Origin: Thiorhodovibrio litoralis
GTDB lineage: Bacteria; Pseudomonadota; Gammaproteobacteria; Chromatiales; Chromatiaceae
NCBI RefSeq assembly: GCF_033954455.1
Contig: NZ_CP121473.1
Location: forward strand, 5,132,501 to 5,196,500
Direction: 5' to 3'
DNA length: 64,000 nucleotides
A model generated the notes under the pieces. The model did no database searches, was not told where the DNA came from, and was given only the letters and a program-made list of their open reading frames with translations. The translations under genes were made by a program, and so were the position numbers. Shown here one piece after another: positions 2,282 to 45,234 of the stretch (positions within the stretch are counted from its first letter, which is position 1; every line of letters starts with the position of its first letter).

Positions 2282-2448
2282 TGTCTGAAATATTCGACAT
2301 AGTGGCTTGATAAGGTGGAAATGTAGCATATTTCGAGCACCCCGGTTGGGTTAGACTCCGGAGATGGTGCGCAGGGCTGGCGCGTGAAACCGTATCTCGA
2401 CAAGCAGTGAAATCGGCTTGGAAATCGGTCTTTAAGCCTGCCAGGCTG

Positions 2449-2466
2449 TACGGAAAATAAACCGTA
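2449..2466. promoter_or_regulatory. Short inverted repeat, possible operator
   Basis: TACGG (2449-2453) and CCGTA (2462-2466) are separated by eight A/T-only bases, 13 bases upstream of the DUF1778 remnant start. Ribbon-helix-helix antitoxins commonly bind such palindromes and repress their own operon. The pairing is visible in the sequence; the function is inference. Confidence 0.3.
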
Positions 2467-2478
2467 TAGAGAAAAAGC

Positions 2479-2658
2479 ATGAATGAAGCTATCGAGCGAT
2501 TCGACATCCGCTTGCCCGACAACGCCAAGCAACTGCTCATGCAGGCGGCGGACATCAGCGGTAACACCCTGACCGGCCTCGTCTTGAATGCCGCCCTGGA
2601 CAAGGCCCATGAGCGACACATACATCAACCTACGGTCTTGTATAGGAGAACACCATGA
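2479..2658 (+). pseudogene. DUF1778 (TacA-like) antitoxin, truncated
   Basis: A 59-codon frame whose first ~45 residues (MNEAIERFDIRLPDNAKQLL onward) match the ribbon-helix-helix N-terminus of DUF1778 antitoxins, which are usually about 90 residues and pair with a GNAT acetyltransferase toxin. The C-terminal toxin-binding region is missing: after the HERHIHQ segment the frame runs into the leader of the next gene, and no GNAT toxin follows. Its TGA overlaps the ATG of the downstream RiPP precursor (ATGA, 2655-2658), so whatever drives this remnant could also drive the precursor. Probably a deletion product that placed the precursor behind an antitoxin promoter. Confidence 0.6.
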
Positions 2659-2954
2659 ACGACCAATCCAAACAGTATCAGCAACTCATTGCCAAGTGCT
2701 GGGCCGACGAGGCATTTAAGCAGCGGCTCCTGGCAAACCCCGCTGAGACGCTCAAGTCCGAGGGTATCGAGGTGCCTGAGGGTGTTCGGGTGCAGGCAGT
2801 GGAGAACACTGCGGAGGTCTTTAATCTGGTGATTCCCGGGTGCCCAGCACAGATCGGCGAGGAGGATTTATTGTATGCGGCGGGGGGTGCAGGATGCCCG
2901 TACGAGGACTGTGGGGCGGTTGGGGCGGCGGGCACACGACATCATTTGAGGTGA
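2655..2954 (+). CDS. NHLP-leader RiPP precursor 1
   Basis: A 99-residue precursor with a nitrile-hydratase-alpha-like leader (NHLP/proteusin type): MNDQSKQYQQLIAKCWADEA begins a helical leader of about 75 residues. A Gly-Gly site (LYAAGG|AG, near residues 76-80) fits cleavage by a C39 peptidase. The predicted core is short, Gly/Ala-rich and holds two cysteines (GCPYEDCGAVGAAGTRHHLR). A strong ribosome site (AGGAG, 2644-2648) precedes the ATG. The leader is nearly identical to precursor 2 at 4658 while the cores differ, as expected for paralogous RiPP precursors. It is convergent with the radical SAM gene, with a 19-base gap. The final structure is unknown; thioether formation at the cysteines is a guess. 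Confidence 0.8.
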   Translation: MNDQSKQYQQLIAKCWADEAFKQRLLANPAETLKSEGIEVPEGVRVQAVENTAEVFNLVIPGCPAQIGEEDLLYAAGGAGCPYEDCGAVGAAGTRHHLR

Positions 2955-2973
2955 AAGCCACGATTAATGAGCT

Positions 2974-4461
2974 TCACGTCCGCTCTGCAGAGCTGAGGGT
3001 CTCGATCTGCTCGCGCAGGTAATCGCGATCAGCGTCCGGCAAATAGCTCCAGCCGTGGATCAAGTCTTCGCACACCGTTTTGATCTCTTGGCAGAAGTGG
3101 GCATCGGGGCGGTGAGGGTCACCGGTCCGGGCCTGGTTATCATAGAAGCAGCCCCCGCCGCACAGGTAGCGAGCCCAGCAGCCCCGGCAGACGGGTAAAT
3201 TGTCCACCACGGCACGGTGATAGTCGTTCAATTCACCCGCGCGATAGTCATCGAGATGACCGAGGCGGGTCTCCGTCAAGCCGACAAAGCGGTGACAGGG
3301 ATAGAGCTCGCCACTCACCGAGATCCCAGCTATTCCCCGACCGACACCGCACGCCACCTGGCGCTTCCGGCCACTGACCAGATACTGCAGCAAGGCCATG
3401 GCCATGGGCGCTGTATGGGCGACGAGTGTGCGCTCATGCGTTGCGGCGAAGAGCCGGGCCACTTCAGCGCGCTGGTCGGCAAGGAACCGGTCATCGACCG
3501 TGATCGGGTCGGGTTGCTCTGCGGTCTTGGGACCGTGCGGCGTTGCATCCGCCAGGATCGCCGGCGATGCCCGAGACAAGCTCAGTGTGGTAAAGCCGAT
3601 CTCGGCTAACCCCTGGCGAATGGCTGTGGGGTCAGCGTCCTCGCAGAGGGTGGCGCGGGCGGTGAGCTCGGGAAAGACTGCGCGAAGCTTCTGGACGTTG
3701 GCGCGGAGGCGTTGGTAGGAACCGCGACCGTTCTTGAACGGGCGCTGGCGATCCTGAATATCCGGGGGGCCATCGCAACTGATCAAAGGGTCGATGTTCT
3801 CGGCCTTGAGGTAGGCGATGATCGGGTCGTTGAGCAGGGTGGCGTTGGTGGTCATGTTAAAGTCGACCCGCTTCCCGCGGCTGGCGGCCTGTTCCTTGGC
3901 GTAGCTGACCACTTGTTGCAGGAGCGGAAAATTAAGCAGGGGCTCGCCGCCGAAAAAGCCGATGTGGACCTGCCCGGCATCCAGGGAGTTATCCATCAGC
4001 CAGTCCACAGCGTTGCGGGCGGTGTCCCAGCTCATGACGCCCTTGTTGCCGTACTCCCCACCCTTTCCGTAGCAGTAGACGCAGCGCAGGTTACAGGTCT
4101 GGGTGAGAAAGAGCGCGATGTTGACGACCGGGTAAGGTCGCGCCGAGGTCGGGTCGGCGGTGGTCTCCGGGGCTTGATCGGGGGCCGTCTCTGGCGGCAA
4201 AGCGGTGTCTGTCGGCTCGGTCGGCGGGACCAGGCCCGTCTCACGCAGTACCTGCATCAGTGCCTCGGGGATCAGGCTACCCGGGCCGGGTATGAGCCGA
4301 CGGAGGGTCAGGGCCAAGGCGGGGCGGATGGGGATAGCCACCAGATCGGCCACCCGAAACAGGCTGTAGGTGCCGTCACGCTCGACAATATGATGATCCG
4401 CCAGTGTGACGTTGCCGTGGTAACTGCGGCCCTGATGGGTAATTTCGTACGGCCCGAACAT
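2974..4461 (-). CDS. Radical SAM/SPASM peptide maturase
   Basis: A 495-residue enzyme. An N-terminal region (1-105) that could bind the leader ends in an acidic/Pro-Thr-rich linker; the radical SAM core follows with the [4Fe-4S] motif CNLRCVYC (Cys123, 127, 130) and the GGEP motif (FFGGEPLL). A C-terminal SPASM domain carries auxiliary-cluster cysteines (CGVGRG, LYPCH, CRGCWARYLCGGGC, HFCQE). The overall pattern resembles the QhpD/ranthipeptide and sactipeptide maturases, which form thioether links to cysteine, fitting the cysteine-containing cores nearby. It lies between the two precursor genes on the opposite strand, so it probably acts on both. The exact chemistry cannot be read from sequence. 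Confidence 0.85.
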   Translation of the reverse strand: MFGPYEITHQGRSYHGNVTLADHHIVERDGTYSLFRVADLVAIPIRPALALTLRRLIPGPGSLIPEALMQVLRETGLVPPTEPTDTALPPETAPDQAPETTADPTSARPYPVVNIALFLTQTCNLRCVYCYGKGGEYGNKGVMSWDTARNAVDWLMDNSLDAGQVHIGFFGGEPLLNFPLLQQVVSYAKEQAASRGKRVDFNMTTNATLLNDPIIAYLKAENIDPLISCDGPPDIQDRQRPFKNGRGSYQRLRANVQKLRAVFPELTARATLCEDADPTAIRQGLAEIGFTTLSLSRASPAILADATPHGPKTAEQPDPITVDDRFLADQRAEVARLFAATHERTLVAHTAPMAMALLQYLVSGRKRQVACGVGRGIAGISVSGELYPCHRFVGLTETRLGHLDDYRAGELNDYHRAVVDNLPVCRGCWARYLCGGGCFYDNQARTGDPHRPDAHFCQEIKTVCEDLIHGWSYLPDADRDYLREQIETLSSAERT

Positions 4462-4541
4462 GTTTGTCTCCAGTGCGTTGCTTATTGGGGAGCTTACTAG
4501 TGCTCAGCCTGTGTTATAACGGGGGCGATCAGGTAAATCAG

Positions 4542-4547
4542 TATAAT
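4542..4547 (+). promoter_or_regulatory. Candidate -10 box upstream of precursor 2
   Basis: A perfect TATAAT hexamer lies 110 bases before the precursor 2 start, in the 196-base divergent region between the radical SAM gene and precursor 2. No good -35 hexamer is visible at 16-18 bases, so this is a weak candidate. Confidence 0.25.
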
Positions 4548-4657
4548 CGGACATGCGGTCAGCCGCGTCCTGATCTGATCAAGCGGTTTGGGTTCTGCTC
4601 CTCGCCCGAACGGCTGCGAGTGGCCCGAGGGGCCATCATTAACCACTGGTGAGCAAC

Positions 4658-4966
4658 ATGAACGACCAATCCAGACAGTATCAGCAACTCATCGCCAAGT
4701 GCTGGGCCGACGAGGCCTTCAAGCAGCGGCTCCTGTCCAACCCGGCTGAGACGCTCAAAGACGAGGGGCTTGAGGTGCCCGAGGGAGTTCAAGTTCAGGT
4801 GTTGGAAAACACCGCGCAGGTTTTGAACCTGGTGATTCCATCACGGCCTACCGAACTTTCGGATGAAGAGTTGCACGCAAGCGGGTTGGCGGGAGGATGC
4901 GGGGATAGCACAACCTGCGGTTTTTATGAGGGCTGCTTTACATTCGGATATACCCGTACGTTTTAG
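4658..4966 (+). CDS. NHLP-leader RiPP precursor 2
   Basis: A 102-residue precursor with almost the same leader as the gene at 2655 (MNDQSRQYQQLIAKCWADEA). The predicted cleavage site is SGLAGG|CGD; the core of about 22 residues contains Cys-Gly-Asp, Thr-Cys-Gly and Gly-Cys-Phe segments (three cysteines) and ends in aromatic/Thr/Arg residues (FGYTRTF). The open frame begins nine bases earlier with GTG, but the ATG at 4658 matches precursor 1. It is divergent from the maturase gene and faces the transporter genes. No lanthionine synthetase or YcaO gene is nearby, so modification most likely depends on the radical SAM enzyme. Confidence 0.8.
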   Translation: MNDQSRQYQQLIAKCWADEAFKQRLLSNPAETLKDEGLEVPEGVQVQVLENTAQVLNLVIPSRPTELSDEELHASGLAGGCGDSTTCGFYEGCFTFGYTRTF

Positions 4967-5288
4967 GATAGCACCCTGCGCGCGGCATTCGTTGCAGATA
5001 GCGGTTCAATAGTGTTTAGCGATTTTCATACGAGATTCAGGGTACGAGGTGGAAGGTTGGGTAAGCAGCTTTGCTGTGCTGAACGCGACTTTCTTTGCTA
5101 TTGGCGACACCCCATACCAGCGTGCAGTCGGAGGTCGCTTAGCGCGGGCGGATAAGGTTACCGGTGAGGTGAAGATTTTTCAGCACTGTGACCCAGACCC
5201 TGATGAATCGCCCTTGGTGCTGACGAGGCCGCGCAGCCCGCCATGCAGCCATCGATACCAACGCCACATGGTCAGCCGGAGTCGATTT
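4967..5288. other. Non-coding stretch after precursor 2
   Basis: No convincing gene. An open frame at 5049-5345 has no recognisable protein features, unusual composition and no good ribosome site; I treat it as chance. This stretch leads into the duplicated 5' end of the secretion gene. Confidence 0.4.
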
Positions 5289-5481
5289 GGAGCCTTTTGC
5301 CGCCGCTTCGGGAACTGGCAACTATTCGAATACTTAGGTGGGTGATTTCACCCTGGCATCCCGAGCAGAATAACCATGCTATTTCGTTCGCAGGTTCTCG
5401 TAAAAGTCACCGATCCTGATCAACTCGATCAGCTTCTGAGCGTCGTCCGCCCTCGGCATGTGCTGGGGTTTGGCGTTGTTG
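5289..5481 (+). repeat. Direct repeat, copy 1 (5' end of HlyD-like gene)
   Basis: Matches 6275-6469, about 988 bases downstream. The coding part (5376-5481 against 6364-6469) shows about ten mismatches in 106 bases by eye; the upstream part is more diverged but shares blocks such as GGGAACTGG and CCCTGGCATCCCGAG. The two copies flank a toxin-antitoxin pair. Confidence 0.8.
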
Positions 5482-5501
5482 ATGAGCTGAATTCCCTTTA
5501 G
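5376..5501 (+). pseudogene. Truncated duplicate of the NHLM HlyD-like secretion gene
   Basis: 41 codons beginning MLFRSQVLVKVTDPDQLDQL, the same start as the full gene at 6364 (MLFRPQALAKVTDPDQLDQL). After FGVV the frame leaves homology and stops at TAG (5499-5501). It lacks the membrane anchor and periplasmic domains, so it is a remnant left by duplication or by insertion of the neighbouring toxin-antitoxin genes. Confidence 0.75.
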
Positions 5502-5553
5502 GTCCTCTTTTGAGACGCGCGCGATGGCGTCGACGAATCATGGGTGCGAAAGA

Positions 5554-5838
5554 ATGACGGTTGCGGACATGCTGAAACAGGCTGGTGAGACTGAATCGCA
5601 GGTGCTCAAAGAGCATCTTATCTTGCTCGCACTCTCCAAAATCAGTCGGTACGAGACGGAGTGTGCGCTCTTCGAGGCCAAATATGCTGAGCCGTTCGAC
5701 GCCTTTCAGCGACGCATGCTGGCCATGAAAAACCAGGAAGATTTCGCGGCCGATGACGACCTGCTGGATTGGGAGTTTGCTGATCGGGCGTTGCGCGGAT
5801 GGAATGAAAAACTGGATGCGCTAAGGCATGTTGATTGA
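5554..5838 (+). CDS. Putative antitoxin paired with TumE/DUF6516 toxin
   Basis: A 94-residue helical protein starting MTVADMLKQAGETESQVLKE. It resembles the small proteins encoded directly before DUF6516 (TumE-family) toxins: a charged N-terminal helix, a central RYETECALFEAKY segment and an acidic end with DLLDWEFA. The frame is open from 5524, but the ATG at 5554 is preferred. It overlaps the next gene by 11 bases, typical of a toxin-antitoxin pair. The family assignment rests on remembered similarity and position. Confidence 0.55.
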   Translation: MTVADMLKQAGETESQVLKEHLILLALSKISRYETECALFEAKYAEPFDAFQRRMLAMKNQEDFAADDDLLDWEFADRALRGWNEKLDALRHVD

Positions 5839-6202
5839 TCTGATCAAGCGATACAGCGCCATCATCCAATCCTGGACGGTCACGAATTTCGACCGGGAAG
5901 GCGAAGACCTTAGACTGAAAGCGCAGATTGTTTTTTTGGATGGAAGTCAGCTTCATATCCGACAGATTGTCATTGACGGACACCTGCTGAAATATGCCTA
6001 TCAATGGCAAACTCAAGAAGGAGCGCTGATCATTCGCTGGGACAATGCAGAGCACTGGTCGGATGTCGCTACCTTCCCGCACCATAAGCATGTTTCCAGA
6101 AATGAAGACGTCAAAGTGATGCCTTCCAATGGCGCTGAACTGGCGCTGGTTCTTGAAGAGATTGCCTTGTTGCTCGAATCCGTCGGACACTCATTGCGAT
6201 GA
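5828..6202 (+). CDS. TumE-family (DUF6516) toxin
   Basis: A 124-residue protein with the features of DUF6516/TumE toxins: an N-terminal beta-rich half (LRLKAQIVFLDGSQLHIRQ), the conserved KYAYQWQ segment and the IIRWDNAEHW...ATFPHHKH motif. The molecular target of this family is poorly known. The pair with the upstream gene sits exactly between two copies of the HlyD gene 5' end, suggesting it arrived as a module or that the duplication formed around it. Confidence 0.7.
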   Translation: MLIDLIKRYSAIIQSWTVTNFDREGEDLRLKAQIVFLDGSQLHIRQIVIDGHLLKYAYQWQTQEGALIIRWDNAEHWSDVATFPHHKHVSRNEDVKVMPSNGAELALVLEEIALLLESVGHSLR

Positions 6203-6274
6203 ATTCTAATTTCCAGCTGCGCCTCTGCCCTGGCGCTCGTCTCCTAACCGATGGTGGGACTGGGCTGATTGCTC

Positions 6275-6469
6275 GGAGCGCTTCGCCGTCGCTGTGGGAA
6301 CTGGCTATGATACGAAATACATCGGTAAGTGAGTTTACCCTGGCATCCCGAGCCGACTAAATCATGCTATTTCGCCCGCAGGCCCTTGCGAAGGTCACCG
6401 ATCCTGATCAACTCGATCAGCTTCTGAGTGTCGTCCGCCCTCGGCATGTGCTCGGGTTTGGCGTTGTTG
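6275..6469 (+). repeat. Direct repeat, copy 2 (intact HlyD-like gene start)
   Basis: Second copy of the repeat at 5289-5481. Here the coding part continues into the full-length gene. Confidence 0.8.
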
Positions 6470-7626
6470 CTGCCGTCATGGTCGCGGGTTTGATCTGGAG
6501 CATCTTGTCCACGGCGCCGGTGATTGTCGGTGGCCCCGGGGTTCTGCTCTCGTCCGCCGGCGTGGCTGCGGTGACCGCCGAGGGGAGCGGGCATATTGAC
6601 GCGATTTTGGTTCAGCCTGGTGATGCGGTCACTCTGGGCCAACCAATCGCCAGAATTCGCCAGCCCGAGCGGCTTGATGAGCTCGAGGCGGCCGAGGATG
6701 AGGCCCGCGATGTCAATGATCGGTATGAGCTTCTGCAAACCGAGTTTGCCGCTCAAGATCAAATCCAGACGGACTTGATGGCGCGTCTGCGCGCGGCGGA
6801 TGCGGAGCGCGTTGCGACTCTGGAGAAGCAACGCGCGGTGCTGGCCAAGCGCACCGAAGGCGAGGCTCGGTTGCAGGGTAAGGGCATGGTGAGTGCCGTC
6901 AATCAGTTCGAGACCGCGCAGCTCTTGGCAAAGGTGGAGCATGAAATCGCGACCGCGCGGAATCGCATGGTCGAGACGTCGCTGCAGCAGGAGCAGGACG
7001 CGGCCCGGCGACACCAGGAACTGGCGGAGCTGCGTATCCAGTCACTGAATCTGCGCCGGCGCGCCGCCAATCTGCGCCGAGACTACGATCGGGACGGTCA
7101 AGTGCTCGCCACCGCGACAGGGGACCTCGCCGAACTGGGCGCTGATGTGAACGATCCTGTCACTCCCGGGCAGGTCATTGCACGGCTGTTGGTCGATGGT
7201 GCGGAGGAGGCGCCGCTGACCGCCGTTGCCTATTTGCCGGCTGGTGACGGAAAAAAGGTCAAAATCGACATGCCGGCGCGGGTTTCGCCCTCAACGGTGA
7301 AGGTGGAGCTTGACGGCTATATTCATGGCCGTGTGATTCGGGTCGCGGAACTGCCTTCCAGTCGCGAAGGCTTGATGCGCCGCCTCAAGAATGCCGTGTT
7401 TGTGGATGAGATTCTCAGCTCTGGCACGCCATTTGAGGTAGAGGTGGAGTTGCAGCGCGATGCAACAACACCTAGCGGTTACGCCTGGACCTCGGGCCAA
7501 GGCCCTGACATCCCGATTGAGCCCGGCACCTTGGCCCGCTCCGAGGTGGTGGTGGAGCGTATTCATCTGATCAGCCTCTTGTTCCCGGCGATGGAATACG
7601 TCTACGGCTGGTTCCGCGCGCTATGA
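6364..7626 (+). CDS. NHLP bacteriocin system secretion protein (HlyD family)
   Basis: 420 residues, matching the usual length (about 420) of the NHLM HlyD-type secretion protein. It has one membrane segment (about residues 34-55, VVAAVMVAGLIWSILS), then a lipoyl-like half motif (EGSGHIDAILVQPGDAVTLGQ), a long coiled-coil hairpin (about 100-250, rich in Glu/Arg/Gln) and a beta-barrel C-terminus. In these systems the protein bridges the inner-membrane ABC transporter to the outer envelope. Its stop overlaps the start of the ABC gene by four bases (7623-7626), so the genes are co-translated. Confidence 0.88.
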   Translation: MLFRPQALAKVTDPDQLDQLLSVVRPRHVLGFGVVAAVMVAGLIWSILSTAPVIVGGPGVLLSSAGVAAVTAEGSGHIDAILVQPGDAVTLGQPIARIRQPERLDELEAAEDEARDVNDRYELLQTEFAAQDQIQTDLMARLRAADAERVATLEKQRAVLAKRTEGEARLQGKGMVSAVNQFETAQLLAKVEHEIATARNRMVETSLQQEQDAARRHQELAELRIQSLNLRRRAANLRRDYDRDGQVLATATGDLAELGADVNDPVTPGQVIARLLVDGAEEAPLTAVAYLPAGDGKKVKIDMPARVSPSTVKVELDGYIHGRVIRVAELPSSREGLMRRLKNAVFVDEILSSGTPFEVEVELQRDATTPSGYAWTSGQGPDIPIEPGTLARSEVVVERIHLISLLFPAMEYVYGWFRAL

Positions 7627-9308
7627 GCGCCCGCAAGCCGGTGGTTGGTGTGGTGCGCACGCCCACCATCCTGCAAATGGAGGCCCTGGAGTGCGGCGCG
7701 GCCGCCCTGGCCATGGTGTTGGCGCATTATGGGCGCTGGGAGCCGCTGGAGAAGTTGCGGCTGTTATGCGGGGTCTCGCGAGACGGCAGCAAGGCGATCA
7801 ATCTCGTTAAGGCGGCCCGCGTCCTTGGATTGAAGGCGAGCGGCAAACGCCTGGAGCCGGCCGACCTGGCTAGCTTGCCGGTGCCGGCCATATTGTTTGT
7901 CGGCATGAACCACTTTGTGGTGCTCGAGGGGGTGAGCAAAGGGAAGTTTCAGCTCAATGACCCTGCGGCCGGTCGGCGGTTGCTAACAGCCAAAGAATTC
8001 GACGAACTCTTTACCGGCTTGGTGCTGGCATTCGAGCCGACCGACGCCTTTCAGCCGGGTGGCACAGCACCATCTATCCTGCCCAGCCTGTGGGCGATGG
8101 CTCGACAGTCGCTCTGGCCGCTGGGCCTGTTGGCCTTGGCTGGTCTGCTGCTGGCTGTTTTCAGCATCCTGATGCCGGGGCTGCAGCAGATTTATATTGA
8201 TCGCATCCTGATCGAGCAATTTGATAATTGGGTCTATCCCCTGGCCATCATTCTGGCGGTGATCGCGCCGGTGATGGCCTTTCTCACCTGGTTGCATGCC
8301 CGACTCATTGCCGCGCTCAACGCCAAACTCTCCATCGTCTTGACTAGCCGACTGGCCTGGCGCGTGTTGCGTCTTCCGGTGCTGTTTTTTGGTCAGCGCT
8401 ACGCAGGCATGATCAGCGCTCGGGTGGGGTTGGCAGATCAGCTGGTGCTCACCCTGACCCAGAGCCTGTCCCAGGTGCTGAGCAATGTGGCACTCGTGCT
8501 GCTGCTCACGCTGCTGATGTTGCAGTACAGCCTTTCTCTCACCCTGATTGTCATCGGCATGAGTCTGTTCAACGCGCTGCTCTTTCAGCGCCTGCGCAAG
8601 AGCCTGGGTGAGGCATCGGAGAAGGTCGCCATGCAAACCGTGAAAATGGGTGGCAAGGTGATGCAAGGGGTACGCATGATGGAAACCCTGAAATCCACCG
8701 GCACTGATGATCTGTTCTTCTCGCAGTGGTCTGGGCTCCAGGTGCTCTACATTAACGCGCAGCAAGCGATTGCCAAGCGCGAGGCGCTGATTGCGGGACT
8801 GCAAACCTGGTTGGCGAGTCTGACGGCGGCGCTGGTGCTGGTGGTGGGGGGCTACTACACCATGACGGAGCAGTTCTCCATCGGCATGCTGGTGGCGTTT
8901 TCCGTCATCACGGTGCTGTTCAATCAGCCGGTGACGGTGTTAGTGAGCTTGGCTGGCATGCTGCAACAGACCCAGGGCGCCATTGCTCAATTGGACGACA
9001 CTCTGGGCTATCCCCTGGCGCGCGAATTTGATGAGCTTGAGACGGACACTAAGACGAACTTCGCCGAAGCGTCCCAGCGGCCCACAACGGCGCCGTTACG
9101 CCGGTTGAGCGGGCAAGTGCGCCTTGAGCAGGTGGGCTGCTGCTGGGGATTGGGCTGGACGAGTCGGCAGACTTTGTCTTGCTGGCCGTGCCCCATGTGG
9201 ACACAGATCTTGTCGAGTGGCCGTCGGCCTTGTTGTCGGCTGAATCCGCCGCGCCTGATGTCATGCCCGCCCTGGTCCCGGCATTGGAGCATTGGCTGCG
9301 CGCGCTGA
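7623..9308 (+). CDS. NHLP export ABC transporter, peptidase/permease part; ATPase domain lost
   Basis: Residues 1-130 are a C39 peptidase with intact triad (Cys24 in LECGAAA, His97 in MNHFVV, Asp113 in LNDPAAG), which cleaves Gly-Gly leaders during export. Residues about 150-460 are the ABC transmembrane domain. Family members are about 710 residues and end in an ATPase domain. Here, just after LSGQVRLEQVG (near 9132), where the ATPase domain should start, the sequence switches to the interior of the next transporter gene in another frame and runs to a chance stop at 9308. No Walker A, signature or Walker B motif is present. The last ~55 residues (Cys/Trp/Pro-rich) are out-of-frame. Peptide cleavage may survive; energy coupling would have to come from the partner ABC protein. 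Confidence 0.8.
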   Translation: MSARKPVVGVVRTPTILQMEALECGAAALAMVLAHYGRWEPLEKLRLLCGVSRDGSKAINLVKAARVLGLKASGKRLEPADLASLPVPAILFVGMNHFVVLEGVSKGKFQLNDPAAGRRLLTAKEFDELFTGLVLAFEPTDAFQPGGTAPSILPSLWAMARQSLWPLGLLALAGLLLAVFSILMPGLQQIYIDRILIEQFDNWVYPLAIILAVIAPVMAFLTWLHARLIAALNAKLSIVLTSRLAWRVLRLPVLFFGQRYAGMISARVGLADQLVLTLTQSLSQVLSNVALVLLLTLLMLQYSLSLTLIVIGMSLFNALLFQRLRKSLGEASEKVAMQTVKMGGKVMQGVRMMETLKSTGTDDLFFSQWSGLQVLYINAQQAIAKREALIAGLQTWLASLTAALVLVVGGYYTMTEQFSIGMLVAFSVITVLFNQPVTVLVSLAGMLQQTQGAIAQLDDTLGYPLAREFDELETDTKTNFAEASQRPTTAPLRRLSGQVRLEQVGCCWGLGWTSRQTLSCWPCPMWTQILSSGRRPCCRLNPPRLMSCPPWSRHWSIGCAR

Positions 9309-11845
9309 GTTGGGGCATGTCGCGCTGGGTGACGCCGCTCCCGGTGGTGGATGTGGGCATCGGCACGGATGAGACGCTCCAGATTGCTTCCGGTCGGCGT
9401 TGCAGCGCTCAACATGCCCTGACGTGGATTCGCTTGGCGCCCGAGGCCGGGTTCTTTCTCGATATTCAGGAGATCGACTCGAGCGCCGATGAGGTGACCT
9501 TCCCCCTCGCCTCCGAGGCCTGGCTGTGGACCATGACGCCGCTGGAGCTTCATGGCCGCTCGACTGCCGCCGCCTTGCGCGACGGCGATGCCTGGGACGG
9601 CGTCGCCGCGCTGCATCGTTTGTTGTTTGAGACGGCCTCGATGAACCTCATGCTGGGCAATGCCGATGAGTACAACCGACTCATGGCGCGCCGTGTTGCG
9701 ACCGAGGCCGAACGCGATCACGCATTCTCCGACTTGATGTCGGTCACGGCGCCGCGTCCCCGGTTGGAGGCGACGCCGGTGCGGGGCGACACTCCCTTGG
9801 TCGGTGCCATGCGGCTGGTGGGCCAGGCGTGCGGGTTCCAGATCCAAGTCCCGGTTGAGCTCAAGTCTGATGATGCGCTCAGCTTAGAGAACATTGTGCG
9901 GTTCAGTCGGCTGCGTCAGCGCACTGTCACCTTGCGCGATGACTGGTGGCAGGGGGATTTCGGCGCGCTGCTGGCGTTTGAAGCCGAAACCCAACGGCCC
10001 TTGGCGCTTGTGTACACGGATCAGGGGAGCGCCCAGTTAATTGACCCGGCCGATGGTCAGGAACTGGACTTTGAGACCCATCGGCAGCGACTCGCGCCCG
10101 AGGCCTTTGAGTTCACCACCCACCTGCCGTTTCGGGCCATGGGATTCCGCTCCCTGTTTGGTTTCGCCTTCGCGCGCGGTTGGCGCGACGCGGTCCTGAT
10201 GTTGGTGATGAGCGCCATGGCCGGGATGATGACCCTGGCCATCCCGGTGACAACCGCTTACCTGATCGACACGGCCATACCCAACCACGAGGTGGGCCAC
10301 TTAATTGAGATTGGCGTGGTCTTGGCGGTGCTTGGCGGCACGGCCTTCGTCGTTGACTATGTGGCGACCTTAGCTTTCACTCGCGCCGAGAGCCGCATGG
10401 GCCGTGCGTTGCAGTCGGGTCTGCTTGACCGGGTCTTGCGCCTGCCCATGGGGTTCTTTCAGAATTTTTCCGCCGGGGACTTGGCCAACCGCGTGATGGC
10501 GATGACGCAGATCCAGACGCTGCTTTCAACCGGCGCGGTCAATGCCATCCTGAGCGGCATTTTCGGCCTGGCCGGCTTTCTGCTCATGTTCTATTACGAC
10601 GCCCGGCTGGCCCTGTGGGCGCTGGTGCTGACCCTGGTGTATCTCATCCTCAGCCTGGTGATCAGCTATCTGCGACTGCGCCAGGAGCGCGCCCTGGCGG
10701 GCCTGATGGGGGACTTTAGCAACATCCTGCTGCACTTGATTCTTGGTGTTGCCAAGATTCGACTCGCCGCTGCCGAAGATCGCGCCTTTGCCCGCTTGGC
10801 CAGTCCCTATGCGAAGAGTCGTCGGCATCAGTTGCGCTCCCAACGCCTGGGCGCCTGGCAATCCGCGCTCAACCAGGTCCTGGCCTTGATCGGGCTGCTG
10901 ATCTTCGTCCTGCTGATTGGCAAACCCTCGCAAGCGCCCAACCTCATCGCGATTGGGGCCTTCTCGGCGCTACTGGTCGCTTTCCAGCAATTCTCCGCCA
11001 GCCTCTCGATGATGGTGATGGTGGCGACTGGCCTGATCGCCATCCAGCCACAGGTGGAGCGCGCCCGCCCTCTGCTCACGGCGGTTCCGGAGGTGAGCGA
11101 GGAGCGCAAGGACCCTGGCGCGCTGTCCGGGGCCATTGAGGTCTCCCATGTCAGTTTTCGCTATACCCCGAACGGACCGCTGATTCTTGACGATGTCTCG
11201 CTGGAGATCGAGCCCGGGCGCTTTGTCGCCCTGGTCGGTGCATCCGGGTCCGGCAAGTCCACGCTGCTGCGCCTCATCATGGGGTTTGAGTCACTGGAGT
11301 CCGGCGGGATTTTCTTCGACGGGCATGCGCTGACCAGTGTCGATGCCACCGCAGTGCGACGACAAATGGGGGTGGTGATGCAGAACGCGCAGCTGATGCC
11401 GGGCTCTCTCTACCAGAACATTGTCGGCACCAGCGGCGGCAGCCTGGACGACGCCTGGGAAGCGGCCACCCAGGTTGGTCTGGCCGATGACATCCACGCA
11501 ATGCCCATGGGCATGCAGACCGTCATCATGGAAGGCGGCGGAGCCCTGTCCGGTGGACAAATGCAACGCCTGATGATTGCCCGCGCCATCGTCAACCGCC
11601 CCAAGGTCTTGCTGCTGGATGAGGCCACCAGCGCGCTCGACAATCGCACCCAGGCCGTGGTCACGGAAAGTCTGGACCGATTGCGCGTGACCCGCATCGT
11701 CGTCGCGCATCGCCTCAGCACCGTGGTCAATGCCGAGCGCATCCACGTCATGGACGCCGGTCGCATCGTCGAGTCGGGAAACTATGCAAGCCTGATGCAG
11801 GCCCAAGGGCAGTTCGCCCGCCTGGCGGCGCGGCAGATGCTTTAG
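9179..11845 (+). CDS. NHLP export ABC transporter, permease/ATPase subunit; N-terminus cut
   Basis: 888 residues from a TTG, but homologous frame is readable from about 9135 (LLLGIGLDESADFVLL), so the native start was lost in the junction. It has an N-terminal accessory region (1-330, with a degenerate peptidase-like part), transmembrane domain (about 335-610), and a complete ATPase domain: Walker A GASGSGKST (about 687), signature LSGGQMQ (about 790), Walker B LLLDEATSALD (about 811) and the H-loop in VVAHRLS. In intact NHLM loci this is the second ABC protein, working with the peptidase-bearing one. Whether it is translated depends on coupling to the upstream frame, which overlaps it by 130 bases. 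Confidence 0.82.
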   Translation: MLAVPHVDTDLVEWPSALLSAESAAPDVMPALVPALEHWLRALSWGMSRWVTPLPVVDVGIGTDETLQIASGRRCSAQHALTWIRLAPEAGFFLDIQEIDSSADEVTFPLASEAWLWTMTPLELHGRSTAAALRDGDAWDGVAALHRLLFETASMNLMLGNADEYNRLMARRVATEAERDHAFSDLMSVTAPRPRLEATPVRGDTPLVGAMRLVGQACGFQIQVPVELKSDDALSLENIVRFSRLRQRTVTLRDDWWQGDFGALLAFEAETQRPLALVYTDQGSAQLIDPADGQELDFETHRQRLAPEAFEFTTHLPFRAMGFRSLFGFAFARGWRDAVLMLVMSAMAGMMTLAIPVTTAYLIDTAIPNHEVGHLIEIGVVLAVLGGTAFVVDYVATLAFTRAESRMGRALQSGLLDRVLRLPMGFFQNFSAGDLANRVMAMTQIQTLLSTGAVNAILSGIFGLAGFLLMFYYDARLALWALVLTLVYLILSLVISYLRLRQERALAGLMGDFSNILLHLILGVAKIRLAAAEDRAFARLASPYAKSRRHQLRSQRLGAWQSALNQVLALIGLLIFVLLIGKPSQAPNLIAIGAFSALLVAFQQFSASLSMMVMVATGLIAIQPQVERARPLLTAVPEVSEERKDPGALSGAIEVSHVSFRYTPNGPLILDDVSLEIEPGRFVALVGASGSGKSTLLRLIMGFESLESGGIFFDGHALTSVDATAVRRQMGVVMQNAQLMPGSLYQNIVGTSGGSLDDAWEAATQVGLADDIHAMPMGMQTVIMEGGGALSGGQMQRLMIARAIVNRPKVLLLDEATSALDNRTQAVVTESLDRLRVTRIVVAHRLSTVVNAERIHVMDAGRIVESGNYASLMQAQGQFARLAARQML

Positions 11846-13370: not shown

Positions 13371-14498
13371 TTAGCCGGCTTTGAGCACCGCGCCGTCTGG
13401 GATCTCGCCCTGTTCGAGATAGCGCCACAAGGCGATGAGCAGCTTGCGCGCCAGGGCGACGATGCCGATGCGACGCATGCGTTTGCCGCCGGTGGCAAAG
13501 CGCTCGCGGTACCAGCGGCTCAGGGCGCTGTCAGGCTGATAGCGCAACCACAGCCAGGACAGTTCAACCATGAGCGCGCGGATGCGCCGGTTGCCGGCCT
13601 TGCTGATGCCTTGGTCGCGCTGATCATCACCGCTCGCATAGGGCGTGGGGGTGAGCCCGGCACAGGCGGCCAGCTGCTGGCGATTGCGAAAGCCGCGCCA
13701 GCTGAAGAATTCCATGACCAAGATCCAGCTCGAAACCCAGCCGATGCCTTTGAGCTCGAGCATGCGTGCGACTTGCTGGTGGGAGACGTCGGTGGCTTGC
13801 TCGACGCGGCGCTTTTGTTCTTGCTCGATGGCGCGGATTTGCTCATCAGCCAAGCAATAGCGCTGGTATTCGCGGCGGATCTCTTCTTTGAGGTCGGCGC
13901 CAAGGGGCTCGCCGGTGGCGGTGCACAAGTGATCGAGAGTATCGATGACGGTGTCGTTGAGACGCTCGATGACGAGACCCTGGGCGATGAAGAGCGATTT
14001 GATTCGGGAGCTGTGGGCGCCACGTTCGCGGATCAGTCGCTCGCGCTCGCGGTTCAGCCGCATCCGATCCTCGGCCCCGGCACTGGGGACGTTCACCACC
14101 GCGAGGGCTTTTTTCTCTCCGCCAAGATACCGCATGAGCTGCACCAGCAGCGCTTCGACGTCGACCCGGTCGGTCTTCACGCGCCGCTTCTTGCGGTTGA
14201 CCTGAATGCTGGCCGAGTCGACCACGCGGCTGTGAATCCCCCAGGATTCCAATGTACGATGAATCCAGAATCCATCCCGGCCGGCTTCGTAAACGCTTTC
14301 AATGACACAATCCGCGCTGAGTCCAAGCTTCCCCTTGGCGATCTCGATCTGCTCGTGCAAGGCGGGAAGATCGCGCGCTTCGATGGTCTTGATGCGGATC
14401 TTCTCGCCGTTGCTGAAGCCCAGCTTCCAGGTTTTGTTGCTCAGCTCAAGGGCCAGATAGAGGGTGGTCTTCGGCGTTTGGACAGCGGCAGTGGTCAT
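13371..14498 (-). CDS. IS110-family transposase (DEDD/serine recombinase)
   Basis: A 375-residue transposase. The N-terminal RuvC-like DEDD domain shows ESVYEAGRDGFWI and KTDRVDVEALL; the C-terminal Transposase_20 domain has LELKGIGWVSSW (helix-hairpin-helix), LAACAGLTPTPYASG and GISKAGNRRIRALM with the catalytic serine. The length is normal for IS110/IS1111 elements, so it looks intact. A GAGGAG ribosome site precedes the ATG. The element sits between the NlpE-like gene and the mechanosensitive channel gene, almost touching the end of the latter. Confidence 0.92.
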   Translation of the reverse strand: MTTAAVQTPKTTLYLALELSNKTWKLGFSNGEKIRIKTIEARDLPALHEQIEIAKGKLGLSADCVIESVYEAGRDGFWIHRTLESWGIHSRVVDSASIQVNRKKRRVKTDRVDVEALLVQLMRYLGGEKKALAVVNVPSAGAEDRMRLNRERERLIRERGAHSSRIKSLFIAQGLVIERLNDTVIDTLDHLCTATGEPLGADLKEEIRREYQRYCLADEQIRAIEQEQKRRVEQATDVSHQQVARMLELKGIGWVSSWILVMEFFSWRGFRNRQQLAACAGLTPTPYASGDDQRDQGISKAGNRRIRALMVELSWLWLRYQPDSALSRWYRERFATGGKRMRRIGIVALARKLLIALWRYLEQGEIPDGAVLKAG

Positions 14499-32224: not shown

Positions 32225-34354
32225 ATGCCCAGCAAAGCCGCCACTAACCGCCGTTTGCGCGCAACGCGCCGGCCCACCCGCCAGCATCTGAACAACCTCG
32301 TCGCCTACTGGTCGCTGCGGCTACTGATCGAGCTGCGCTTCTGGGAGCAGCTGTCCGGTTACCCCGATGCGCTGACCGATGATGGCGATCTGCTGCGCCC
32401 GCTCGGCCTAGGGCGTTATGAAGATGCGGACATGAAACCTCGCGCCTTTCTGCGCCTGCTGAAGGATCGCCTACAGGTGCTGAGCGCCAAACAGCCCGAG
32501 TCCATCCTGGAACCCGTGCACCAGCGCCTGCAGCAGGAACTCGCGCTATCCCTGGTCGAGTGCCGGATTCTGACCCTGGTGCTGGCGCTTTGCTCTTACC
32601 CGCCTTTTGCCCGGCTGACGGAGGAGTTTGGCGAACTCTCGCGCGCGGATGCGATCTCCGCCATCGCCACGGCGCTGGGCGTATCCCGCCCGGCAGTGCG
32701 CAAGGCATTGTCGTCCGACGGCCACCTGGCTCGCTCTGGCCTGCTGCAGGTCAGTCTGGGCGGCGTCGATACGCTGGCCGATAAGTTCCTGCCACTCGAT
32801 GGACTCGATGCCCTGCTGTTTGAGTCCCGCATCGGCGTCGATACCCTGACCCGCCGCTATTTCGCCCTGGCACCACGCCCGACTCTCAAGCGCCGCGACT
32901 ACCCGCACCTGGGAGCAACCCTCAGCGATCTGCTCGCCTATCTCAAAGCCGCCCGCCAGCACAGCGAGTCCGGCTGCAATGTGCTGCTCTATGGCCCGCC
33001 GGGGACCGGCAAGACGGAACTCACCCGCGTCCTGGCCAAGGCGCTCAAGCTTCGCCTCTATGCCATCAGCGCCACGGACGAGGATGGCGACCCCATCGGC
33101 GATGCCCAGCGCGTCGCCGCCTACCAACTCGCGCAGCATCGCCTCTCGCGCCAGCCCGATAGCCTCATCCTGTTCGATGAAGCCGAAAGCCTGCTCGCGC
33201 CCTCCTGGCTCGATGCCCTGTTCAGCGAGGACGCGCCCACCACCAACAAGGGCTTCATCAACCAACTGCTGGAAACCAATCCTCTTCCCACTCTGTGGAT
33301 CGCCAACACCATCGAGGAGATGGACCAGGCCTTTGTGCGCCGCTTTGACATGCTGATCGAAATGCCCGTGCCGCCGCTATCGGTGCGCGCCGGGATCGCT
33401 GCGACCGCGATGAATGATCTGGATGTGAGCGCGGCCTTCACTCAGAAGCTGGCCCGTCAGGCACACCTGGCCCCGGCTCATCTGACGCGCGCCGCCCGGG
33501 TGGCGCGACTGTGCGCGGCTGGCGGCGCTTCCCGCGCGCAGACCGAAGCGCAACTGACGCGCATGCTCAATGGCACCCTGCGCGCAATGGGACAGGCCGT
33601 GCCCCTGATGAAAGTGACAAATGCCGCCAGCGACGTCACCACCTACCGCCTCGATCTGCTCAACCCCGATCGGCCCATTGAGCCCATCATCCGGGGGCTC
33701 GCGCTCGGCGGTCAGGGTCGCTTGTGCCTGTACGGGATGCCTGGCACGGGCAAGAGTGCCTTCGCCGCCGAGGTCGCGCGCCGCCTCGACCGGCCCTTGC
33801 TGACCAAGCGCGCCTCCGATCTGCTTGGCTCCCTGGTCGGCCAGACCGAGCAGGCCATCGCCGCCATGTTCGCCGAGGCCAGTCGCGATGGGGCGGTGCT
33901 GCTGCTGGATGAGGCGGATAGCTTTCTGCGCGCTCGATCCTCAGCCCACCAAAGCTGGGAAGTCACCCAGGTCAATGAACTCCTGACCCAGATGGAGGCC
34001 TTCGACGGCGTCTTCATCTGCACCACCAACCTGGTCGATCAACTCGATGATGCCTCGCTAAGACGCTTCGACCTCAAAGTGAAATTCGAGGCTCTCAAGG
34101 TCCAGCAGCGCATGCAGCTGTTCACGCAGGTGTTGACCGAGCAGGGTGTCGCCGCGCCCGCTGGCTCGCCCTGGCGGGCGCGGCTCGCGAGTCTCGACGA
34201 TCTCACCCCCGGTGATTTCGCCGCCGTGATCCGTCAGCTGCGCATCGAACAGGCCAAGTGGACAGCCGCCCTGCTGTTCGAGCGACTTCAGGCGGAGTGT
34301 CGCCACAAACGCCAAGGGCGAGCCCGCCCGATTGGCTTTGCTGCTGCCATCTGA
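32225..34354 (+). CDS. Double AAA+ ATPase
   Basis: 709 residues. The N-terminal 240 residues are helical with no recognised domain. AAA domain 1: Walker A GPPGTGKTEL (about 257), Walker B LILFDEAESL (about 314), sensor and FVRRFDM arginine finger region. AAA domain 2: Walker A GMPGTGKSAF (about 504), Walker B VLLLDEADSFL (about 558), SLRRFDLKVKF. The layout resembles proteins related to FtsH/VPS4/CDC48 ATPases without a protease domain. It is not in an operon; its substrate is unknown. Confidence 0.8.
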   Translation: MPSKAATNRRLRATRRPTRQHLNNLVAYWSLRLLIELRFWEQLSGYPDALTDDGDLLRPLGLGRYEDADMKPRAFLRLLKDRLQVLSAKQPESILEPVHQRLQQELALSLVECRILTLVLALCSYPPFARLTEEFGELSRADAISAIATALGVSRPAVRKALSSDGHLARSGLLQVSLGGVDTLADKFLPLDGLDALLFESRIGVDTLTRRYFALAPRPTLKRRDYPHLGATLSDLLAYLKAARQHSESGCNVLLYGPPGTGKTELTRVLAKALKLRLYAISATDEDGDPIGDAQRVAAYQLAQHRLSRQPDSLILFDEAESLLAPSWLDALFSEDAPTTNKGFINQLLETNPLPTLWIANTIEEMDQAFVRRFDMLIEMPVPPLSVRAGIAATAMNDLDVSAAFTQKLARQAHLAPAHLTRAARVARLCAAGGASRAQTEAQLTRMLNGTLRAMGQAVPLMKVTNAASDVTTYRLDLLNPDRPIEPIIRGLALGGQGRLCLYGMPGTGKSAFAAEVARRLDRPLLTKRASDLLGSLVGQTEQAIAAMFAEASRDGAVLLLDEADSFLRARSSAHQSWEVTQVNELLTQMEAFDGVFICTTNLVDQLDDASLRRFDLKVKFEALKVQQRMQLFTQVLTEQGVAAPAGSPWRARLASLDDLTPGDFAAVIRQLRIEQAKWTAALLFERLQAECRHKRQGRARPIGFAAAI

Positions 34355-43831: not shown

Positions 43832-44110
43832 ATGACCGACATCAGCAAAGAAGAAGGCGTCCTGCTCGCTATCGTCGAGCGCTTCGAGCAATTCCGCCTG
43901 CCACGCGCGCTCGAGATCAAGGCGCGGGTTGATCACGGTGAGGCGCTCACGGATACCGATATCACGCATTTGGAACAAGTCATGGAGGATGCGGAATCCA
44001 TCAAAGCCTATGTGGATAAGCGCCCGGAATTCGGCAAGCTCTACGCCCGGGCGGTGCATCTCTACAAGGATATTACTGACAAGGCGCTGGCGAACGAGCC
44101 GGGGGCCTGA
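43832..44110 (+). CDS. Small hypothetical protein
   Basis: 92 residues from the ATG at 43832 (MTDISKEEGVLLAIVERFEQ). Acidic and helical, with no signal peptide and no recognised domain. It ends convergently with the GrrM-like gene; the two overlap by 38 bases. It may form a unit with the gene at 42688. Confidence 0.6.
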   Translation: MTDISKEEGVLLAIVERFEQFRLPRALEIKARVDHGEALTDTDITHLEQVMEDAESIKAYVDKRPEFGKLYARAVHLYKDITDKALANEPGA

Positions 44111-45227
44111 CGCGCGCGCAGCGGGCGGCGGCGGCGGCCAGGTGCGCGAACAGGGCGCGATAGAGATCGCAGTGGGGGTCTTTCTCGCCCAAGCGGCCAT
44201 GGACGGAGTAGGCGCGCACCGGGCAGCCGCCGTGGCACAGGGCGAGAAAGTCGCAGTCCAGGCAGTCTCCCGCGAGCAACTGCGCCGGGCGCTGATGGAA
44301 GCGTTCGCGCACCGGGTTGGCGGCGAGCAGTGCGGTTAGGGAGGCGGCCTCGAACAGGTTGCCGAAGCGCCAGTCCGGGTAGCTGCTGACCCAGCAGTCG
44401 CACTGGGCGACATGGCCGCGCGCGTCAATGCACAGCATGTGCCGAGCGCAGTCGTCGGTCCAGATGCAGGGCCGCAGGCTGGGCTGATCGCGAAAATAGG
44501 CCAGCAGTTCATCGAAGGGGCCAACGCGCGTGTCGTCGTCCGGGCCGCGCGCTAGCCAGACATCGGCCAGCTCGGTATAGAAGCGGATCAACGCGGGGCT
44601 GGCTTGCGGTAGGTCGCGCTTGACCGCGTTGAGGGCGCCGCCTGGAAATGGCGTGTTGACCTGGAAGCTGCGAATGCCAAGCGTATCAACAAAGTGACTG
44701 TAAAAGGCATCTGCGCCCAGTTCCAAAGTGGCGGCATTGGGCACGGCGATGGCCGAGACCTTGATGCCGACCGCGCGCGCCTGCTGGATCGCCCGGATCA
44801 AGAGAGCATCGTAATCCTGGCAGTCGCGACCCGCGCGGTGGCGATGGAGATTGGGCACATCGAGCGAGGTGCTGACCCGGTTGTCGAACATCTCGCGGAT
44901 GATGTCGTTCCAGCGTGGGCTGTAGCCGATCAAATTGCTTTGCAATTCATGCCGGACGTTCAGGCCGCGCGCGATGGCGGCGGTCGCGATCAGCGCCTGG
45001 GCATGGGCGAACCAGGACGGCGACAGCGTCATCACCTCACCGCCCTGCCAGTGGATCAAGAGGGTCGCGTAGCCGGTGGCCAGCAGATGATCCAGCACCT
45101 TGGTGATCAGGACCTCCAGGCCCTCCAGCGACAGCGTCTCGTTGCTGTGTTCCTCGAAGCAATAGTCACAGGCCGCGTTGCATTGCAGCGTCGGCAGCAG
45201 AATCAGCGCGAAAGTCCGCCCGCTCAT
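44073..45227 (-). CDS. GrrM-like radical SAM/SPASM peptide maturase (cyclophane-forming)
   Basis: 384 residues from the ATG at 45227. The radical SAM motif CNAACDYC (Cys16, 20, 23) lies close to the N-terminus, as in GrrM/XyeB/FxsB enzymes; HWQGGEVM is the GGE equivalent. The SPASM domain has CIWTDDCARHMLC, CDCW, CLDCDFLALCHGGC and HCDLYR. This enzyme group links an aromatic ring to the side chain two residues later, giving three-residue cyclophanes. The nearby precursor has four Trp-Xaa-Asn motifs, the right kind of substrate. The last ~20 residues (Ala/Arg/Pro-rich) overlap the convergent gene and look like an added tail. Confidence 0.85.
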   Translation of the reverse strand: MSGRTFALILLPTLQCNAACDYCFEEHSNETLSLEGLEVLITKVLDHLLATGYATLLIHWQGGEVMTLSPSWFAHAQALIATAAIARGLNVRHELQSNLIGYSPRWNDIIREMFDNRVSTSLDVPNLHRHRAGRDCQDYDALLIRAIQQARAVGIKVSAIAVPNAATLELGADAFYSHFVDTLGIRSFQVNTPFPGGALNAVKRDLPQASPALIRFYTELADVWLARGPDDDTRVGPFDELLAYFRDQPSLRPCIWTDDCARHMLCIDARGHVAQCDCWVSSYPDWRFGNLFEAASLTALLAANPVRERFHQRPAQLLAGDCLDCDFLALCHGGCPVRAYSVHGRLGEKDPHCDLYRALFAHLAAAAARCARVRPPARSPAPCQ

Positions 45228-45234
45228 GCCGCGC

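Follow-up and report, generated by a model that had tools for sequence, protein, structure and literature searches.

Two NHLP-type precursor genes beside a radical SAM/SPASM maturase in Thiorhodovibrio litoralis: a candidate pathway to thioether-bridged peptides

A gene for a radical S-adenosylmethionine (SAM)/SPASM enzyme lies between two NHLP-type precursor genes in Thiorhodovibrio litoralis, which raises the question of what this enzyme does to the peptides encoded beside it. The genes fall in the window, by which we mean the whole 64-kb stretch analysed here (positions 5132501-5196500 of a single-contig genome of 5,466,623 bases). From sequence-level evidence, the answer we lean towards is a multi-precursor pathway for ribosomally synthesised and post-translationally modified peptides (RiPPs), in which the maturase would make ranthipeptide-type thioethers from Cys to Asp or Glu. 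Published work is cited by PMC identifier, from excerpts of each paper. The elements at the centre of the question are the following.

2655..2954, + strand: NHLP precursor 1, 99 aa, with two core Cys and a C-X3-[DE] match (TIGR03793 77.6 bits; PF02979 40.3 bits)
2974..4461, - strand: radical SAM/SPASM maturase, 495 aa (NCBIfam, Pfam, alignment and AlphaFold2 model)
4462..4657: divergent stretch of 196 bp from the maturase start to the precursor 2 start (gene positions)
4658..4966, + strand: NHLP precursor 2, 102 aa, with three core Cys and C-X3-[DE] and C-X-[DE] matches (TIGR03793 90.7 bits)

The whole-protein scores of both precursors exceed the curated TIGR03793 cut-off of 50.9 bits, which bears out the first-pass annotation, where they had been called NHLP-type. 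That annotation also described the two leaders as nearly identical. They are closely alike, but at 85% identity over 61 codons, in DNA and protein alike (nonsynonymous divergence, dN, 0.074; synonymous divergence, dS, 0.66), the wording was slightly strong. Both leaders end in a double Gly, and cores were counted from after it. As had been noted, the cores differ; they are unrelated to each other and both bear Cys (two in core 1, three in core 2). The leader of precursor 1 is 97% identical to that of a precursor in a sister species (G001), and their cores differ, as expected of a hypervariable core. When core 1 and the nearest sister gene were tested for a frameshift origin, the leaders matched and the cores gave no clean alignment. 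A short stretch directly 5' of the precursor 1 start codon is also common to one G001 precursor.

The maturase, whose length and position between the precursors had been read correctly, consists of a clade motif (residues ~1-23), a domain resembling a RiPP recognition element (RRE; ~20-80), a radical SAM core and a SPASM domain. The radical SAM CX3CX2C motif is formed by C123, C127 and C130, and the SPASM domain has seven Cys (C371, C389, C425, C428, C434, C438 and C457). All ten of these cluster Cys are invariant in 40/40 aligned rows (7 from the clade described below and 33 others), and CX3CX2C together with a seven-Cys SPASM pattern is what we take to be the mark of radical SAM/SPASM peptide maturases. 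Among the best 25 of 73 matching NCBIfam models, none had its cut-off reached. TIGR04064 scored highest (387 bits, cut-off 518.7), followed by PapB NF047865 (264.9, cut-off 340), and lower scores were obtained for QhpD TIGR03906 (240.4, cut-off 453) and SCIFF TIGR03974 (189.4, cut-off 425). The maturase is thus nearest to TIGR04064 and then to PapB, below every named cut-off. It had first been labelled QhpD/ranthipeptide-like; we rejected QhpD-like as the main label because that score falls below those of TIGR04064 and PapB, while ranthipeptide-like stands as a best guess from the predicted fold and the Asp/Glu that follow core Cys.

An AlphaFold2 model of the maturase (mean predicted local distance difference test score, pLDDT, 86.6) has CteB as its best solved match (Foldseek E 1.1e-25). 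In VIA-align the model matched CteB with Z 33.7 and a root-mean-square deviation of 3.3 over 390 residues, model residues 21-474 aligning from CteB residue 2; the runners-up were ChlB (Z 27.3) and anSME (26.7). Residues 1-86 modelled alone (pLDDT 86.5) gave a best Foldseek E of 0.72, which is not significant, and low Z scores in VIA-align (McbB 5.3, TbiB1 4.4, PqqD 3.9 and CteB 3.8, interspersed with NO66 entries at 3.6-4.3). We take McbB, TbiB1, PqqD and CteB to be leader-binding proteins, some of them by entry title, and on these weak scores we read the N-terminal domain as a putative RRE.

At E 1e-60, the maturase was found only in the window's own genome among 210 genomes of the order, and 398 genomes drawn from the phylum held two matches including itself, the second at 36% identity. 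A wider scan of one genome per species (84,980 species) gave 417 relatives, from which the best 80 (79 loci) were retained; six of these are full-length, with 44-55% identity, after which identity falls to <=40%. These six mates come from a Desulfobacteraceae metagenome-assembled genome (MAG), a Bacillota MAG, Candidatus Methylobacter oryzae, Methanosarcina spelaei, Candidatus Magnetominusculus xianensis and a Nitrospirae MAG, so that with the window they span five phyla. Together with two more Methanosarcina genomes, they rule out a single-species curiosity. The seven maturases form one clade in a quick tree of 93 rows, with 100% support in the Shimodaira-Hasegawa-like approximate likelihood-ratio test (SH-aLRT), and the six mates score 402-465 bits against TIGR04064, all below its 518.7 cut-off. 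Common to all seven is a motif of ~23 residues (YEI, GR, Y, NV) before the first conserved His, which was not seen by eye in the 33 other rows of the 40-row alignment. We softened the idea that the N-terminal extension is clean and unique to the clade: the motif is particular but the length is not, since 23 residues precede the conserved His in the clade and <=20 do so in 27/33 other rows, with more in 6/33, and start codons were assigned mechanically. Horizontal transfer visible by composition was unsupported, as the GC content of the gene (0.636; 0.776 at third codon positions, GC3) is similar to that of the other genes measured. Viral carriage was rejected after a viral scan gave distant relatives only (20-34% identity).

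An NHLP precursor lies within ~0.35 kb of the maturase in 6/7 clade loci, and in the two further Methanosarcina genomes; among the mates, it adjoins the maturase in five of the six (L012, L013, L015, L016 and L017). The NHLP precursors of the clade genomes number 17: two in the window, six in G658, three in G659, one in G661, two in G662 and three in G663. Some are not adjacent to the maturase. Four of the six in G658 are on a different contig, whose end falls within a second maturase gene; one of those in G662 is ~12 kb away, and two of those in G663 are on another contig. The locus of the closest relative (L012) has, 0.2 kb after the maturase, a Nif11 precursor as well (L012:2118-2339; TIGR03798 66.8 bits, cut-off 32.3), which rules out that the clade uses NHLP leaders only and suggests that one enzyme may meet two leader families. 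A three-seed Nif11 profile detected no other Nif11 precursor in the clade-locus DNA searched and matched no open reading frame (ORF) of the window, and no Nif11 model was listed for the window precursors.

NHLM exporter genes are found near the maturase in L012 and L013 and on the L016 contig; they were not detected in the 10-13 kb searched for each of L014, L015 and L017. In three Methanosarcina genomes (G661, G1506 and G1509; loci L015, L254 and L255), a single NHLP precursor lies upstream of the maturase. All three precursors have a near-identical core end and lack the usual double Gly, and no homologues of the three exporter proteins were found in the 10-20 kb searched at these loci.

Cys is present in 16/17 NHLP cores of the six clade genomes that have such precursors, and 13 cores have at least two. 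The pattern C-X1-4-[DE] occurs in 14/17 cores against 9.0 expected on shuffling (p 0.004; this and the p-values that follow ignore relatedness), and the reverse pattern, [DE]-X1-4-C, in 9/17 against 8.9 expected. Counted by residue, Asp/Glu stands at +2 to +5 of 20/34 Cys (11.2 expected on shuffling, p 0.0006) and at -2 to -5 of 13/34 (11.2 expected, p 0.30). By single position over the 34 Cys, there are nine Asp/Glu at +2 (3.5 expected, p 0.005), eight at +4 (3.1 expected, p 0.007), six at +6 (2.8 expected, p 0.045) and none at +1. C-X3-[DE] is found in 8/17 cores, both window cores included. Twelve comparison NHLP cores from Peptococcaceae and related Bacillota had no excess of C-X1-4-[DE] (10 against 8.8 expected) and an excess at +1 instead (10 against 4.5 expected); these 12 contain two near-duplicate pairs, with L019 and the seven of L206 left out. 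Left out of the 17 were two extra, near-identical Methanosarcina precursors and the L012 Nif11 peptide, which is not NHLP. Some core boundaries (the third of L013, and L015) were set by eye because there was no clear GG.

The sister species of the genus (G001, 5,417,120 bases; G002, 5,478,625 bases) offer a natural comparison with the window: the exporter is the same and the leaders are alike, with no maturase match in either genome at E 1e-30, and cores in genomes lacking the enzyme mostly have no Cys. Of nine TIGR03793 matches in G001, we used seven intact, like-leader precursors, and 1/7 of their cores has Cys. With one from G002 added, Cys-bearing cores number 2/8 in the sister set against 16/17 in the maturase genomes (Fisher p 0.001, ignoring relatedness), and when the sister count was widened by the G002 1714055 precursor and the Thiodictyon plasmid precursor it became 4/10 (p 0.004, again ignoring relatedness). 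Left out of the sister set were G001:C1:4553654, which has a stop, the sub-cut-off G001 4526561, the sub-cut-off G002 1714055 (two core Cys) and 1554178, and other-leader G002 precursors. Leader dN was <=0.3 of dS in each of 15 pairs, suggesting that selection maintains the leaders also in genomes without the maturase. A leader of this type is therefore by itself no predictor of the thioether chemistry, which agrees with the view of Haft and colleagues that leaders and chemistries mix and match (PMC2887384).

In the ranthipeptide-type pathway that we favour, one leader would be kept while cores vary, with two NHLP precursors here and more in the sister species. The predicted RRE-like domain of the maturase would hold the leader, and the CX3CX2C cluster would yield a 5'-deoxyadenosyl radical. 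The sulfur of a core Cys would then be joined to a side-chain carbon of an Asp or Glu, usually 2-5 residues downstream, with a loss of 2 Da each. By analogy with the CteB proposal, a putative auxiliary cluster in the SPASM domain would hold the Cys thiolate; in CteB such a cluster has an open site positioned to meet the substrate (PMC8326336). A C39-peptidase exporter would cleave at the double Gly and carry the core out of the cell. The exporter genes of the window are as follows.

6364..7626, + strand: NHLM HlyD-type adaptor, 420 aa (TIGR03794 271.6 bits, cut-off 156.2)
7623..9308, + strand: C39-peptidase exporter ABC1, truncated (TIGR03796 504.7 bits over profile positions 1-484 of 710, below the 853.3 cut-off)
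9128: deletion junction at which ~986 bp of sister DNA are absent (blastn pieces and junction letters)
9179..11845, + strand: second NHLM ABC transporter, ABC2 (TIGR03797 788.1 bits, cut-off 709.4; PF00664, PF00005)

The HlyD-ABC1-ABC2 block (6364-11845) is 95-97% identical in DNA to that of G001, minus 986 bp at 9128. By blastn, window 6273-9128 corresponds to L232rc 5016-7869, and window 9128-11845 to L232rc 8856-11573. The deletion fuses ABC1 out of frame to ABC2, so that ABC1 keeps its peptidase and membrane domains, loses its ATPase domain and has an out-of-frame tail after ~9128. ABC2 lost its start at the junction and kept its membrane and ATPase domains; its 888 aa are 97% identical to G001, where the open frame has 1005 aa. 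ABC1 of G001 is intact (732 aa, TIGR03796 927 bits, with the ATPase domain recognised by motifs read by eye). Judged from these letters, the local exporter is probably dead in this strain. Elsewhere in the genome, at 3000476-3002656, lies the complete ABC1 (955 bits) of a second NHLM system, near other NHLP genes, and with the local exporter broken the product, if made, would need this second system (~3.0 Mb) or stay unexported. The NHLP-like precursors of that second region (G000:C1 ~2.99-3.01 Mb, L235) have long Thr/Val-rich cores; next to one of these precursors (L004), two ORFs resemble radical SAM genes on visual inspection.

Several points, among them the probable loss of the local exporter, weigh against a ranthipeptide-type pathway at this locus. 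The Cys/acid statistic was picked after the cores had been inspected, and the paralogs that enter it are non-independent. Searches with a seven-member profile at E 1e-100, in which the query genome was among the matches each time, matched 1/295 genomes in the phylum of G662, 2/370 in the order of G658 (one of the two being the TIGR04064 member L019), 3/185 in the order of G661 and 1/251 in the order of G660. They added two clade members, each almost a copy of the Methanosarcina locus already known, and gave no hold-out set for the statistic. Three of the 17 cores are without C-X1-4-[DE], one of them Cys-free. For L014, where the maturase gene starts ~0.5 kb from a contig end, no NHLP precursor was recognised at the locus or in its genome. 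The tail of the L012 Nif11 precursor is short and without Cys, and a TIGR04064 member in Prosthecochloris has a Nif11 neighbour with a Cys-free core, so Cys-free substrates are possible. A plasmid of Thiodictyon (Chromatiaceae) carries a precursor with the same leader and two Cys in its core, and no maturase of this kind was found on it. The sister species keep like-leader precursors in the absence of the maturase, which means that leader and enzyme are not obligate partners. PapB acts on C-X3-[DE] and reportedly tolerates C-X0-6-D but not a transposed order (PMC9413430), whereas a review describes it as stricter on X3 (PMC8172795), so that the accounts differ on its need for X3. In CteB the partner of Cys is Thr (PMC11002830), so the acceptor cannot be read from the fold, and the Asp/Glu spacing is that of PapB and not of every ranthipeptide.

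Of the other explanations, the one that survives best is a decaying or orphan locus, in which the maturase would be a horizontally acquired passenger, the precursors would be served otherwise or stay unmodified, and no product would be exported. Although the ABC1 ATPase domain is lost, the genome has a further NHLM system whose ABC1 is complete. No maturase match was found in the two sister species (E 1e-30) or in the rest of the 210 order genomes (E 1e-60), but an NHLP precursor adjoins the maturase in five other clade loci, and while like-leader precursors persist in the sister species, their cores mostly have no Cys and both window cores have several. The maturase itself is full-length with every cluster Cys present, and we consider an orphan locus rather unlikely.

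Alternatively, Cys may form a thioether to another acceptor, either an alpha-carbon, as in sactipeptides, or a side chain of Thr, Asn or another residue. The Cys-to-Thr chemistry of CteB, the nearest solved fold (PMC11002830), would fit such a product, as would the Ser/Thr near Cys in several cores. Set against these is the directional Asp/Glu excess downstream of Cys, which is absent in the 12 comparison cores and makes another acceptor unlikely.

Other SPASM enzymes make C-C bonds. Chemistry without the Cys sulfur (a C-C cross-link, epimerisation or excision, with Cys used for disulfides or metal binding) is nevertheless quite improbable here, given Cys in 16/17 cores with the enzyme against 2/8 in the sister genomes without it and a fold nearest to CteB, even though several NCBIfam models matched by the maturase are named cyclophane-forming, other radical SAM enzymes epimerise or splice NHLP-type precursors (PMC8326336; PMC11002830) and Nif11 neighbours of relatives can have Cys-free tails.

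Among known systems, TIGR04064 (NlpM) gives the highest NCBIfam score for each of the seven clade members (387-465 bits). It has the same order of N-terminal domain, radical SAM core and SPASM domain. Its members L019 and L042, which are over the cut-off, also have NHLP precursors on the locus, and the clade's L012 has a Nif11 precursor too. However, the seven miss 518.7 bits, form a separate clade with 100% support, share their own 23-residue motif and have mostly NHLP leaders; the model's name gives NlpM a Nif11 partner, whereas the window has NHLP neighbours only. PapB, the freyrasin enzyme, is the second-best NCBIfam match of the clade and has the same Cys-then-Asp/Glu direction in its cores. 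PapB works with the PapA leader, whereas the clade has an NHLP leader, scores 264-284 bits (below 340) and has less regular spacing, C-X and C-X3 both being common. CteB, the SCIFF ranthipeptide maturase of thermocellin, is the nearest solved fold (Z 33.7 over 390 residues, from its N-terminal domain), but the clade scores 189-220 bits against the TIGR03974 cut-off of 425 and its cores are hypervariable. QhpD/PeaB, the maturase of quinohemoprotein amine dehydrogenase, belongs to the same wider enzyme group (216-245 bits for the clade), with the 453 cut-off above these scores and no amine dehydrogenase among the neighbouring proteins scanned.

Two loci, L042 and L043 (Desulfovirgula and Peptococcaceae MAGs), have two adjacent radical SAM/SPASM genes; the second gene of L042 scores 685.7 bits, over the TIGR04064 cut-off, and the first 349.2, under it, with NHLP precursors on the contig. 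A Peptococcaceae MAG (G673) has seven clustered NHLP precursors at L206:7397-11269, most with an aromatic-glycine tail (e.g. CYGYGY).

The first-pass annotation had regarded the combination of NHLP leaders with a lone radical SAM maturase as unusual. This was not supported: a 2014 paper on anaerobes described NHLP/Nif11 clusters in which several radical SAM proteins accompany a peptidase transporter (PMC4289311), spliceotide clusters combine NHLP/Nif11-type precursors with radical SAM enzymes (PMC11002830), and TIGR04064 models a near family. The excerpt of the 2014 account gives no separation of this maturase clade and no chemistry (PMC4289311). Proteusins and spliceotides (PoyD, PlpX) likewise have NHLP-type leaders and radical SAM enzymes, but their enzymes epimerise or excise. 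Among the titles and abstract openings of the matches listed in open-licence PMC, there was no report of an NHLP-leader peptide with SPASM-made thioethers, and a wholly new peptide class is possible.

A broader proposal, which we hold to be doubtful, is that the clade represents a separate proteusin-leader thioether family. One leader-reading SPASM enzyme would close Cys-to-Asp/Glu rings on many unrelated cores, as a radical counterpart of the one-enzyme, many-cores prochlorosins, and the family would have spread horizontally over five phyla and Methanosarcina. Because the double-Gly site is gone in Methanosarcina, the archaeal product would act without NHLM export. If true, the Methanosarcina members would place a radical-made NHLP peptide in archaea. 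Should the enzyme accept whatever core follows an NHLP leader, two genes would suffice as a simple route to libraries of acid-acceptor thioether macrocycles.

The stretch at 4462-4657 is possibly a shared promoter region of the maturase and precursor 2. A sigma-70 consensus scan of 2300-6400 found no site, and terminator-like sites in that scan numbered 2 against 3.5 by chance. Two further elements flank the precursors.

2479..2658, + strand: short TacA-type antitoxin fragment (PF08681 35.8 bits, profile 1-39 of 80) that overlaps the start of precursor 1; outside the pathway, a flank marker
5081..5286: DNA recurring in several copies beside sister-species precursors (blastn of the window against L232; an ORF lies there at L241:4759-5097)

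The counterpart of 5081-5286 in the sister species is presumably a reverse-transcriptase-like fragment, recognised by reading. Among the 15 window proteins scanned against NCBIfam, nine of them also against Pfam and together a subset of the window's ORFs, no lanthionine or YcaO enzyme was recognised, as had been stated at first. The maturase had also been described as the only visible modifying enzyme; it is the one nearby, and a second radical SAM/SPASM gene lies ~40 kb off at 44076-45266 (- strand, 397 aa), not adjoining the precursors. The best matches of its product are far below the cut-offs (DynA 121.7 of 450 bits, DarW 115.4 of 650).

A HipA-like gene is present at 885-2042. Between precursor 2 and the exporter lies a two-gene pair (5524-6202, + strand), the first gene without a family match and the second encoding a TumE-type toxin (PF20126 75.6 bits; NF045777 47.5, below cut-off). 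About 1.5 kb beyond the exporter is an IS110-family transposase (13374-14498, - strand; 172.3 bits, cut-off 140). Farther along the window, a 709-aa AAA-type protein (32225-34351, + strand) resembles the anti-phage ATPase IteA/IetA, below the NCBIfam cut-off.

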